DNA of 64,000 nt from Bacteroidetes bacterium GWB2_32_14. GTDB lineage: Bacteria; Bacteroidota; Bacteroidia; Bacteroidales; UBA12077. The position numbers were made by a program, and so were the translations under genes. Below, in pieces: positions 12,038 through 17,035 of the stretch (positions are counted from its first letter, which is position 1; every line of letters begins with the position of its first letter). The notes beneath the pieces were generated by a model. The model searched no databases, was not told where the DNA came from, and was given only the letters and a program-made list of their open reading frames with translations. The DNA is taken from positions 1 through 64,000 of the forward strand of contig MENK01000027.1 of NCBI GenBank assembly GCA_001768235.1, written 5' to 3'.

Positions 12038-13291
12038 ATGAACATTAAAAAAATAATAATAACGGGCATTGTTCTACTAAGTATTATATTAATAAGTTTT
12101 ATTAAACCAAATACAAATAATTTAAATCCTAAAAACAGGGATATTTTTGCAACAGATATTGATGAAAATATTATATACAGCAATATCCAAAAAGAATTTG
12201 GAATAACCCTGGATTCTTTTTACGTAGTACAAAACCGGATAAAAAGAAATCAAAACCTGGCATTCATTCTCTCAGAAACAGGACTCAATGACTCGATCGT
12301 TAATATAGCCACGTTGAATTCAGCTTCTGTTTTTAATATTCGTAATATTCAGTTGGGAAATCAATACAACTTGTACTTCACGAGAGACAAAGACAGCACG
12401 TTAAAATATTTTGTGTATAAACACAGCCCCACGGAGTATTTAAAAATAGACCTTAATAAGAAACCTCAGGCTTGTAAGGGAGAAAAACAAATCATTACAA
12501 ACGTGAAAACAAGTACAGGAACAATATCGACATCATTATGGAATACCATGATTGAAAACAATATTGATCCCGTGATGGCTATAAGGCTTTCAGAGATTTA
12601 TGCATGGACAGTAGATTTTTTTGGACTCGACAGAGGCGACCACTTTAAAGTAATCTATGAAGAACAATTTGTTGACAGTATTCCTATAGGCATTGGAAGA
12701 ATATTTGCTGCAAATTTTACCCATAAGGGAGAAGAATTGTTTGCCTTCGAATACGAACAAAACGGGGTTTTAAGTTATTATGACGAAAATGGGAAAAGCC
12801 TGAGACGCCAGTTTTTAAAAGCACCCTTACGATTTTCTCATATAAGTTCAAAATTCTCAAAAAGCAGGATGCATCCTATATTAAAAATCAGGAGGCCTCA
12901 CTCGGGAGTTGATTATTCTGCACCAACAGGTACTCCTGTATATACTATTGGCGATGGAACAGTAATTGATAAAGGTTATACCAAATCGGCCGGGAATTAT
13001 ATTAAAATAAGGCATAACAGTGTTTACACATCGGGATACAACCACTTATCCAGGTATTCAAATGGTATTAAAATCGGACAAAGAGTAAACCAGGGACAAA
13101 TCATTGGTTATGTCGGAAGTACCGGATACGCTACAGGGCCTCATTTAGATTTTAGAGTATGGATGAATGGGCAGGCTATTGATCCATTAAAAATTAAGGC
13201 CCCACCAATTGAACCAATAAAAGAAGAAAATCTGCCAACCTACCAGGCATCTATAAATCAGGTTAAACAAGAACTCCGGGCATTAAATTAA
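12038..13291 (+). CDS. M23-family peptidase-like protein (LytM fold)
   Basis: LytM/M23 proteins cut peptidoglycan peptides or activate amidases in the periplasm. The ORF track starts at a TTG (12017); I prefer the ATG at 12038, which gives a clean membrane anchor (MNIKKIIITGIVLLSIILIS). A long N-terminal region of about 260 residues precedes the C-terminal M23 domain. That domain has the zinc motif HSGVD, the catalytic-type YNHLS and GPHLDF near the end. The second histidine of the usual HxH motif is Asp here, which may change or abolish metal binding. I cannot say whether it is an active enzyme or an activator. Confidence 0.88.
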   Translation: MNIKKIIITGIVLLSIILISFIKPNTNNLNPKNRDIFATDIDENIIYSNIQKEFGITLDSFYVVQNRIKRNQNLAFILSETGLNDSIVNIATLNSASVFNIRNIQLGNQYNLYFTRDKDSTLKYFVYKHSPTEYLKIDLNKKPQACKGEKQIITNVKTSTGTISTSLWNTMIENNIDPVMAIRLSEIYAWTVDFFGLDRGDHFKVIYEEQFVDSIPIGIGRIFAANFTHKGEELFAFEYEQNGVLSYYDENGKSLRRQFLKAPLRFSHISSKFSKSRMHPILKIRRPHSGVDYSAPTGTPVYTIGDGTVIDKGYTKSAGNYIKIRHNSVYTSGYNHLSRYSNGIKIGQRVNQGQIIGYVGSTGYATGPHLDFRVWMNGQAIDPLKIKAPPIEPIKEENLPTYQASINQVKQELRALN

Positions 13292-13320: not shown

Positions 13321-13362
13321 TAAAACATTCATTTTAAACACTTGTTTAAAATGAATGTTTTA
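13321..13362. promoter_or_regulatory. 42-bp perfect palindrome, likely operator of the adjacent TetR gene
   Basis: TAAAACATTCATTTTAAAC (13321-13339) and its exact reverse complement (13344-13362) flank a 4-base centre. The site ends 33 bases before the tetR ATG. A promoter-like pair CTTG (13341-13344) and TATCTTGC (13364-13371), 19 bases apart, overlaps its right half. That fits auto-repression by a dimeric TetR protein. A terminator of the upstream gene is the alternative, but the stem is AT-rich and no long T run follows. Confidence 0.65.
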
Positions 13363-13395
13363 TTTATCTTGCAATAAAATTTATTGTCAGGAAAC

Positions 13396-13989
13396 ATGAA
13401 TACCCAGGAAAAAATTATTGAATCTGCAACTGTTTTATTTCTTGAAAAAGGCTTCGACAGAACCAGTGTAAGGGAAATTGCATCAAAAGCCAATATAAAT
13501 ATTTCTTTAATGAATTATTACTTCCGAAGCAAAGAAATTTTATTTGAAACCATAATAGATTTATTAATAGGCAAAGCAGCAGCATCGTTAAAAGATATTT
13601 TAGATGCGGAAATTGATTTAAACGAAAAAATAAGCCAATATACAGGCAAATATATTGATATGCTTATAAGAAACCCTTTACTGGTATCATTTGTCCTGGC
13701 AGTATTAAACCGTAATCCGGAGAAACTCATAAAATTAAAAGTTACCGACAATTTATACACGACCAAAAAATTCTCACAACAACTTAATAACGAGTACTTA
13801 AAAGGGAATATAAAAAAAGTTGATCCTGAACAATTTTACCTGAACATGTTATCATTAATTTCATTTCCCTTCGCGATGAAACATTTAATTATCGAAAAAA
13901 ATCAATTTTCACAAGAAGAATTTGACAGGTTTATAACAGAACGCAAAGAAATTATATACAACACTTTAATTTCATATTTAAAACCTTAG
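13396..13989 (+). CDS. TetR-family transcriptional regulator
   Basis: The track begins at a TTG (13384). The ATG at 13396 gives MNTQEKIIESATVLFLEKGFDRTSVREIASKA, a textbook TetR start, so I use it (198 residues). The N-terminal helix-turn-helix (TSVREIASKANINISLMNYYFRSKE) binds DNA. The C-terminal part (about residues 60-190) is the variable ligand and dimer domain. A 42-bp perfect palindrome directly upstream is the probable operator. The lipoprotein gene 21 bases downstream is probably co-transcribed and regulated with it. The ligand is unknown. Confidence 0.92.
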   Translation: MNTQEKIIESATVLFLEKGFDRTSVREIASKANINISLMNYYFRSKEILFETIIDLLIGKAAASLKDILDAEIDLNEKISQYTGKYIDMLIRNPLLVSFVLAVLNRNPEKLIKLKVTDNLYTTKKFSQQLNNEYLKGNIKKVDPEQFYLNMLSLISFPFAMKHLIIEKNQFSQEEFDRFITERKEIIYNTLISYLKP

Positions 13990-14010: not shown

Positions 14011-14736
14011 ATGAAACAAAAAATTTATCAAAAAAAGAATCTGAAATTATACGCCTTAATTATTATAATTTCAGCTACAGGATTAATGACATCTTGCTCA
14101 CCTGAATACATTCCGAATATGGTAAACACACCTGTTTTTAGCAATAAAGGAGAGTTTCAGGCAACAGTAGCTACCGGAACCAGCAACTTTGATGCTCAGC
14201 TTGGCTATGCTATAACCGATAATATTGCTATAATAGCTAATGGAAGCTTTGCCGATCAGACTAACGATACAACCGACGAATTTCACAAACATACAATTAT
14301 TGAAGGCGGAGTCGGCTATTACAAAAAACTTGCAAATTCAGGAAGAATCGAAGTCTTTGGAGGTTATGGAATGGGAAAAATAAAAACTTATGAAGAAAAT
14401 GACTTGTTTGATGATGATTATACAGATATAAGTTTTAATAGAATATTCATACAGCCTGGAGTTGGCGCTGTTACCGATATATTTGACGGAAGTTTTGCCA
14501 CAAGAGTCGCCTTTGTACAAATGATACCTTCATCAACGTCTAATTTTGAAGAATCGTGGCATATGTTTGTAGAACCTGTTATTACGGCAAAAATAGGATA
14601 CCGGTATGCCAAAGCTGTTATTCAGATTGGGTATTCTTTTCCTGTAAATGAAGAAAGTATTGATTATAACACCCAGGGCTTAATATTTAATTTCGGTTTA
14701 ACTATAAATATCGGAAGAGATTATTTAAATCTATAA
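14011..14736 (+). CDS. Outer-membrane lipoprotein, beta-rich, partner of the TetR gene
   Basis: The 241-residue protein has a lipoprotein signal ending in the lipobox LMTSC (Cys near residue 29). The mature part is rich in alternating hydrophobic strands with Gly and aromatic residues (GEFQATVATGTSNFDAQLGY, and AKAVIQIGYSFPVN). It ends in LTINIGRDYLNL. That pattern suggests a small beta barrel or a surface-facing beta-sandwich. I do not recognise a named family. It lies 21 bases behind the TetR gene and overlaps the convergent purN end by six bases. It may be the output gene of that regulator. Confidence 0.75.
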   Translation: MKQKIYQKKNLKLYALIIIISATGLMTSCSPEYIPNMVNTPVFSNKGEFQATVATGTSNFDAQLGYAITDNIAIIANGSFADQTNDTTDEFHKHTIIEGGVGYYKKLANSGRIEVFGGYGMGKIKTYEENDLFDDDYTDISFNRIFIQPGVGAVTDIFDGSFATRVAFVQMIPSSTSNFEESWHMFVEPVITAKIGYRYAKAVIQIGYSFPVNEESIDYNTQGLIFNFGLTINIGRDYLNL

Positions 14737-15300
14737 CGAACGAACAACTTTTTCAATAATCTCAGGAAAGTGCGCGTACTCCAGTTCGTGCACTTTTTTT
14801 GCTACATCATCAGGATTATCTGTATTCAGAACTGCGCATCTTGCCTGAAAAATAACCGATCCTTTGTCATATTCATTATTTACATAGTGAATAGTTATTC
14901 CCGATTCCTTTTCCCTATTCGCTACTACAGCCTCATGAACTTTTGAGCCATACATCCCCCTGCCCCCGTATTTTGGTAATAATGCCGGATGTATATTAAT
15001 TATTCTGTCAGGAAAAGCATTGATTAAATATTCGGGTATAAGCCATAAGAACCCTGCTAAAACAATAAGCTGAATGTCATTTTCAATAAGAATTTCCTTT
15101 ATCTTTTGTGTTTGATAAAAGTCCGTTCGTGAAAAAACATGATATTTAATATCATGATTTATTGCACGTTGTATAACATACGCATTTTTATTGTTCGAAA
15201 AAATTAGTGAAACTTCAATGTTTTTTTTCTTTTTAAAATGATTTATGATGTTTTCCGCATTGGTTCCAGAGCCTGAAGCAAATATAGCTAACTTTTTCAT
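14731..15300 (-). CDS. purN: Phosphoribosylglycinamide formyltransferase
   Basis: PurN transfers a formyl group from 10-formyltetrahydrofolate to GAR in de novo purine synthesis. The 189-residue protein carries the N-terminal nucleotide motif FASGSGTNAENI. The catalytic stretch NIHPALLPKYGGRGMYG holds the conserved Asn and His, and SGITIHYVNNEYDKG holds the catalytic Asp. The length and motifs are regular. It is convergent with the lipoprotein gene and divergent from acpP. Confidence 0.96.
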   Translation of the reverse strand: MKKLAIFASGSGTNAENIINHFKKKKNIEVSLIFSNNKNAYVIQRAINHDIKYHVFSRTDFYQTQKIKEILIENDIQLIVLAGFLWLIPEYLINAFPDRIINIHPALLPKYGGRGMYGSKVHEAVVANREKESGITIHYVNNEYDKGSVIFQARCAVLNTDNPDDVAKKVHELEYAHFPEIIEKVVRSL

Positions 15301-15456: not shown

Positions 15457-15500
15457 CACAGTTAAAAAATAAATTTAATTATTAATTAAAACTTAAAGTT

Positions 15501-15737
15501 ATGTCTGATACTGCATCAAGAGTAAAAGCAATCATCGTTGATAAATTAGGAGTTGACGAAAATGAAGTTACACCAGAAGCAAGTTTTACTAATGACTTAG
15601 GTGCTGACTCTCTTGACACTGTTGAGTTAATCATGGAATTTGAAAAAGAATTCAATATCTCAATTCCGGATGATCAAGCTGAAAATATCGGCACGGTTGG
15701 TGATGCTATTAAATACATTGAAGAGCACGCTAAGTAA
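15501..15737 (+). CDS. acpP: Acyl carrier protein
   Basis: ACP carries growing acyl chains on a 4'-phosphopantetheine arm in fatty-acid synthesis. The 78-residue acidic protein has the attachment motif [10 protein letters not shown] with Ser37. It is followed 44 bases later by fabF and then rnc, a conserved order in Bacteroidota. Confidence 0.98.
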
Positions 15738-15781
15738 AACATCTTTAATAACCCCCAAATCTTGTTTTAAATTTATTAATT

Positions 15782-17035
15782 ATGGAATTCAAACGTGTAG
15801 TAATTACTGGCCTTGGAGCAATTACCCCAATCGGCAACAATGTTGAAGAATATTGGAATAATTTAATGAATGGAGTAAGTGGTTTAGACATGATTACTCA
15901 TTTTGATGCTTCAAAATTTAAAACAAGATTTGCTTGTGAGGTTAAAAACTTCGATCCAAATCAACATTTTGATCGAAAAGAAGTGAAGAAACTTGATTTG
16001 TTTGCACAATATGCTTTAGTTGCTGCTGAGCAAGCAATTCAAGATTCAAAACTTGATTTAAACACCATAGATCACGATAAAGCAGGTGTTATATGGGGAT
16101 CGGGAATCGGTGGAATACAAACATTCCTCGAAGAAGTAAGAAGTTATGTAACAGGTGACGGAACCCCACGGTTCAGCCCTTTCTTTATTCCCAAAATGAT
16201 TTCTGATATTGCTTCAGGACATATTTCAATGAAATACCATTTCCGCGGTCCAAATTTCACAACTGTTTCTGCTTGTGCATCATCAACAAACGCATTGATT
16301 GATGCATTTAATTATATCCGCTTAGGAAAAGCAAATATCTTTATCACTGGTGGATCCGAAGCTGCAGTAAATGAAGTAAGTATGGGAGGATTCAACTCCA
16401 TGCAAGCTTTATCAACAAACAACGATAATTATAAAACGGCATCACGTCCATTCTGTAATACCCGCGACGGTTTTGTTATGGGCGAAGGAGCTGCTGCTCT
16501 TATTTTTGAAGAATTAGAACACGCCAAAAAGCGTGGTGCTAAAATATATGCTGAAGTTGCCGGTGGCGGTATGTCTGCCGATGCTTATCACTTAACTGCT
16601 CCACACCCTGAAGGTTTAGGAGCAATGAATGTAATGAAAAATGCACTGGCAGATGCAAATATGAAACCAGAAAATATTGATTATATCAATGTTCATGGTA
16701 CTGCTACTCCACTTGGTGATGTTGCCGAACTAAAAGGAATTAAAGAAGTTTTTGGTGAACATACTTATAAAATGAATATCAGTTCAACAAAATCAATGAC
16801 AGGCCATTTACTTGGAGCCGCAGGCGCTATCGAAACATTAGCTGCCCTTTGTGCTGTTGTTAATGATGTTGTTCCCCCAACAATTAACTTACAGGAAGTT
16901 GATCCCAATATTGATTCTAAACTAAACTTAACACTTCATAAAGCTCAAAAACGTGTCGTTCGTGCTGCATTAAGTAATACTTTTGGTTTTGGCGGGCATA
17001 ATGCTTCTGTTATTGTTAAAAAATATACCGAATAG
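15782..17035 (+). CDS. fabF: 3-oxoacyl-ACP synthase II
   Basis: FabF elongates acyl-ACP with malonyl-ACP. The 417-residue thiolase-fold protein has the catalytic Cys165 in SACASSTNA and the two active-site histidines in NVHGTATPLGD and TKSMTGHLLGAAG. The glycine-rich C-terminal GFGGHNASV is also present. It sits 44 bases after acpP and 5 bases before rnc, so the three genes probably form one operon. Confidence 0.98.
   Translation: MEFKRVVITGLGAITPIGNNVEEYWNNLMNGVSGLDMITHFDASKFKTRFACEVKNFDPNQHFDRKEVKKLDLFAQYALVAAEQAIQDSKLDLNTIDHDKAGVIWGSGIGGIQTFLEEVRSYVTGDGTPRFSPFFIPKMISDIASGHISMKYHFRGPNFTTVSACASSTNALIDAFNYIRLGKANIFITGGSEAAVNEVSMGGFNSMQALSTNNDNYKTASRPFCNTRDGFVMGEGAAALIFEELEHAKKRGAKIYAEVAGGGMSADAYHLTAPHPEGLGAMNVMKNALADANMKPENIDYINVHGTATPLGDVAELKGIKEVFGEHTYKMNISSTKSMTGHLLGAAGAIETLAALCAVVNDVVPPTINLQEVDPNIDSKLNLTLHKAQKRVVRAALSNTFGFGGHNASVIVKKYTE

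Follow-up and report, generated by a model that had tools for sequence, protein, structure and literature searches.

PsrA of Pseudomonas is a fatty-acid responsive autorepressor of the TetR family whose own promoter holds the box C/GAAAC(N2-4)GTTTG/C (PMC13104628), and in Stenotrophomonas the promoter of the orthologue Smlt2053 contains two such repeats (PMC10304680). Cooperative occupation of operators by more than one dimer has been described for FadR of Sulfolobus acidocaldarius, a TetR family member that binds semi-palindromic sites as a cooperative dimer-of-dimers and has no more than four sites in the genome, one of them at its own gene (PMC6449355), and for NanR of the GntR family, three dimers of which bind cooperatively to the three tandem repeats of the (GGTATA)3 operator (PMC8012715). 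Here we analyzed a stretch of 64,000 nucleotides (the window) from Bacteroidetes bacterium GWB2_32_14 (contig MENK01000027.1, positions 1 to 64,000) that contains a 42-bp perfect palindrome in front of a tetR gene. We propose, with a probability of about 0.8, that the adjacent tetR gene is autoregulated through this palindrome as its operator, and that the palindrome consists of an array of three 12-bp AAACAnnTGTTT dimer sites that would serve cooperative repression.

The palindrome (13321-13362, no strand) has 20-bp arms at 13321-13340 and 13343-13362 that are 100% complementary and are separated by the 2-nt centre CT. A sequence-only reading of the same DNA had described 19-bp arms around a four-base centre; its 42-bp perfect palindrome stands, while its arm count was one pair short. 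It had also called the palindrome far beyond chance, in agreement with an expectation of 1.3e-5 perfect 20-bp arms per 64 kb at the local composition (8e-4 per genome), and no further perfect palindrome with arms of at least 12 (loop of up to 8) was found in the window. The palindrome begins 29 bp past the stop codon of a codirectional M23 peptidase gene (12038-13291, + strand) and ends 33 bp ahead of the ATG of tetR (13396-13989, + strand; 197 aa), for which an in-frame TTG at 13384 is also a possible start. The tetR product matches Pfam TetR_N at 1.8e-13, which places it in the TetR family. Its AlphaFold model (pLDDT 89) is all helical with TetR proteins as its PDB matches, and a fold search returned generic TetR members (RutR, PfmR, FadR) in a ranking too flat to name a ligand.

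A candidate -33 element, TTG (13342-13344, + strand), proposed from the sequence and from a geometry that is kept in orthologues, lies within the palindrome, 20 nt upstream of a candidate -7 element, TATCTTGC (13365-13372, + strand), which starts 2 nt past the palindrome. The latter is of the TAnnTTTG type, the Bacteroidota -7 box, and its distance from TTG at the tetR promoter fits the Bacteroidota -33/-7 spacing. The placement of the -33 box inside the palindrome, as the earlier reading had it, was thus confirmed, and at this locus a conserved palindrome overlaps the promoter of the regulator gene itself, as expected of TetR autorepressors.

Comparison with relatives resolved the palindrome into units with the 12-bp consensus AAACAnnTGTTT at a period of 13 bp, and the window array can be read as AAACATTCATTT T AAACACTTGTTT A AAATGAATGTTT. 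The centre unit (unit 2, 13336-13347) has all 10 consensus letters, and the outer units (unit 1, 13323-13334; unit 3, 13349-13360; none of the three with a strand) have only 8 of 10 each, a weakness that counts against an array. The two outer units are mirror images about the centre unit, which gives the array the appearance of one continuous 42-bp palindrome; what had been taken for a single long palindromic site is instead three units in a layout common to the wider family. TetR orthologues in five congeneric genomes are 75-77% identical, and alignment of the upstream regions showed that the array is kept in 6/6 congeneric genomes, with arms that drift and three units that are still readable. 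The three-unit array was found in the six genomes of the genus with the gene, and also in G008. The centre unit is the best conserved, with 9 or 10 of 10 letters in all six congeneric orthologues. All three units have 10/10 letters at locus L072, and the array at L071 reads AAACATTTGTTT T AAACGTTTGTTT A AAACAAATGTTT.

The same stretch could in principle be an intrinsic terminator of the M23 gene, forming a long RNA hairpin followed by a U-rich stretch, since it lies so close behind the M23 stop codon, was flagged by a terminator scan and folds as RNA at -20.1 kcal/mol (z = -8.45). However, the stem has only 3 G-C pairs, the poor U tract contains the -7 box, and the hairpin energies at the six congeneric loci run from -20.1 through -18.4, -14.5, -9.3 and -7.1 to -4.6 kcal/mol, with the units conserved instead. 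At L073, for example, pair symmetry is down to 15/20 and the hairpin to -4.6 kcal/mol, yet the units score 9, 10 and 10. Since the units are conserved while hairpin energy and pair symmetry drift, it is the DNA units and not an RNA stem that selection maintains. The combination of a conserved, stable, GC-rich stem with a U tract was not found at these loci, and an Rfam search returned only chance-level miRNA matches, far below the cut-offs. Dual use in this species only, with the TetR operator doubling as a partial terminator that insulates tetR from M23 read-through, would account for a strong hairpin that only the window and L071 have, and such read-through would bypass autorepression; with a weak U tract and a hairpin strength that is not conserved, we regard this as improbable.

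Homologues in Bacteroidales at ~50% identity carry GTTTWAAAC-N3-GTTTAAAAC ahead of the TAnnTTTG box, with the end of the pattern mostly 11-12 nt upstream of it; a recognizable site was absent at some of these orthologues (L092, L107, L109, L111 and L114). The outgroup site is shorter (21 bp) and has a 12-bp rather than a 13-bp spacing (lag 12, z = 6.6); the differing spacing and the orthologues lacking a site both count against the operator model. At more than 20 outgroup loci the site persists next to a divergent upstream gene, lnt (apolipoprotein N-acyltransferase; confirmed by Pfam at L074 and L098), and because of this orientation there is nothing to terminate at those loci. On the hairpin energies across relatives and the gene orientation, we rejected termination as the main function and consider it very improbable; a terminator for M23 is what the sequence-only reading had named as evidence against an operator, and these data disfavor it while leaving room for a side role. 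In many Bacteroidales the operator lies between the divergent tetR orthologue and lnt (L074:1283-2986 and many of L075-L108), where it might affect the lnt promoter too.

A genome scan with the strict pattern gave exactly one place in 17 of 24 genomes, in all 17 cases at the tetR promoter, and zero matches with the reversed pattern as a control; with two mismatches allowed, there were still only 1-3 places per genome. In a further alternative, a regulator other than the adjacent TetR would bind the array. This is highly improbable: the site and tetR stay together while the genes around them differ, each genome has the site essentially only at the tetR promoter, and each TetR class has its own half-site letter (described below). 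The genome search for the half-site that the earlier reading had suggested gave no second strong operator copy in the window's own genome. Of the near matches, the best with two units, G000:C6:10442, was rejected as a second target because the surrounding stretch reads as coding, and a pair of loose matches on C1 offset by 13 bp was rejected because it gives no clear array.

The self-similarity of upstream regions was scored at lags 6-30. At lag 13 it reached z = 10.5 within the genus, z = 10.9 among ~30%-identical paralogues and z = 10.5 among Cytophagales-type homologues. The period was then put to the test in an independent, newly retrieved set of 69 homologues from across the phylum, which gave z = 16.4 (best lag 13 in 38/69). 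Members within each group are related, so that these z values overstate independence, although half-site letters and gene context vary from group to group. The 52 upstream regions of the window served as a control and gave a flat lag profile, the single region above threshold being the tetR site. The conservation of the centre unit above the others and the shorter outgroup site would fit one long site bound by just one TetR dimer, with the outer symmetry as incidental flank. This is unlikely, given period-13 repeats of 2-5 units in three separate homologue groups and the recurrence of symmetric 42-46-bp triplets (L120, L126, L133, L178 and L218). In the part of the literature that was covered, 13-bp TetR arrays were not found described for Bacteroidota.

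The half-site letters of these arrays follow the recognition helix of the regulator. The best unit per promoter takes the form AANCANNTGNTT, and the variable place is G in 123/128 half-sites of the K..H class (N-K-x-x-x-H in the recognition helix) vs 4/86 in the other classes. The I/V..N proteins, the class of the window TetR (recognition helix N-I-S-L-M-N-Y-Y-F), have T at this place (TGTTT in 10/10), and the S...N proteins have A in 8/8. On a tree built without the recognition-helix letters for the association test, there are ~3 changes for K..H vs others and 2 for S vs I/V, with one independent pair on well-supported branches, and an independent-contrast test of the residue-letter code, with too few changes, gave no significance. 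Because the states change only ~2-3 times on the tree, independence from descent cannot be shown statistically; the association is consistent with a recognition code.

The gene downstream of tetR (14011-14736, + strand) is the probable second gene of an operon and encodes a predicted 10-strand outer-membrane beta-barrel behind a lipoprotein-like signal, bearing out the earlier description of the partner as a beta-rich lipoprotein of unknown kind; Foldseek gave only weak matches to generic barrels and no specific function. A TetR and envelope-protein operon is likewise upheld by the 21-bp gap between the two genes and by a gene order that is conserved in congeneric relatives, as far as contigs reach (leuS, membrane protein, M23, tetR, barrel, purN-like). 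The barrel lipoprotein gene is tandemly duplicated behind tetR in L072 (3615-5209) and L073 (3619-5320). Near the tetR operon of the window are the purN-like gene (14731-15300) and genes that probably encode an acyl carrier protein and FabF (15500-17035); a fatty-acid link drawn from the latter is tempting but unsupported.

Efflux control is probably the usual role of the phylum-wide TetR family, and Pfam analysis of the genes downstream of ten phylum homologues identified OEP/TolC in eight, an aminotransferase at L172 and a short ORF without a match at L174. Directly downstream of the window tetR there is no OEP/TolC gene and the barrel lipoprotein is found instead. A second family homologue in the window's genome, L063 (G000:C22:87212-87811), belongs to the K..H class, has the unit AACCAAATAGTT in its own promoter and is likely an efflux-type regulator. 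In G011, a four-unit period-13 array with the same half-site (L242:2040-2090; G011:C1:155439-155489) precedes a gene for a lipocalin-like lipoprotein (Lipocalin_4, 6e-5). In G008, a lipocalin-like gene with 56% identity to it has four units (L248; G008:C346:193-243) at the same distances of -128, -115, -102 and -89. The four-unit array is not present at more distant paralogues of this gene, and the gene itself is not in the window genome. The lipocalin-like gene is likely a second target of the regulator in these two congeneric species, so that a small regulon of envelope genes is suggested for some species. On balance, we lean towards a Bacteroidota-wide class of TetR regulators with autoregulatory arrays of 2-5 dimer sites at a fixed 13-bp period, often as a symmetric triplet that forms a 42-bp palindrome. 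Residues 36 and 40 of the recognition helix would determine which letter stands third in the half-site TGxTT, and in the window lineage the system would have moved from TolC efflux to envelope lipoproteins.

In the autoregulatory model that we prefer for the window, TetR dimers would occupy the 12-bp units, one on each of three units with centres 13 bp apart and probably cooperatively, and would cover the promoter from the -33 element through the spacer as far as the -7 box. RNA polymerase would be blocked at the covered promoter, so that tetR and, on a presumed joint operon transcript, the downstream barrel lipoprotein would be repressed rather than activated, the barrel being the putative regulated partner. 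Binding of a ligand, perhaps a lipophilic or acyl compound to judge by the kinship of the HTH and the fold, would release TetR from the operator. The auto-repressed promoter of the earlier reading, with an operator over the -33 box, agrees with the conservation of the array at the tetR promoter, repression itself being the presumed outcome.

At the level of the single locus, the biology would be ordinary autorepression. What is added is the array architecture, and the reading of the site as an autoregulatory operator appears well supported by the comparative evidence. With a multi-dimer array of fixed 13-bp period and a one-letter code, the regulons of many uncharacterized Bacteroidota TetR regulators could be predicted from sequence, and orthogonal repressor-operator pairs would become available. 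The data also point to a regulator that has passed from efflux control to the control of barrel and lipocalin-like lipoproteins.

Of the known systems, PsrA resembles the window in half-site and geometry (AAAC-ACTT-GTTT in the window): the AAAC-N4-GTTT core of its box is present, while the outer letters differ (TAAAC...GTTTA vs C/G). The locus had been called new ground, which holds for the uncharacterized barrel lipoprotein partner and signal but not for this half-site, whose AAAC-N4-GTTT core is already that of PsrA. The likeness extends to the HTH, for which the best PDB sequence match is 2fbq (residues 3-73) and which the NCBIfam PsrA model covers over residues 2-71, but there is no similarity outside the HTH, and the score of 50.6 bits falls far below the equivalog cut-off of 300. 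The window also differs from PsrA in its three tandem units at 13 bp, its Bacteroidota promoter and its outer-membrane barrel partner. The best full-length profile match is RefZ (YttP) of Bacillus subtilis (window TetR residues 5-183), yet its 70.4 bits are far below the equivalog cut-off of 180, and RefZ acts on septum placement through five motifs around the origin, in contrast to the one motif at the promoter of tetR itself in the window. The TetR-TolC efflux operons of Bacteroidota share a homologous TetR and period-13 operator arrays, with OEP/TolC next in most of those tested, whereas the window lineage has the barrel lipoprotein and no adjacent efflux genes. NanR belongs to an unrelated protein family and offers a functional analogy only, and FadR places two dimers on each site, in contrast to the three tandem units of the window.
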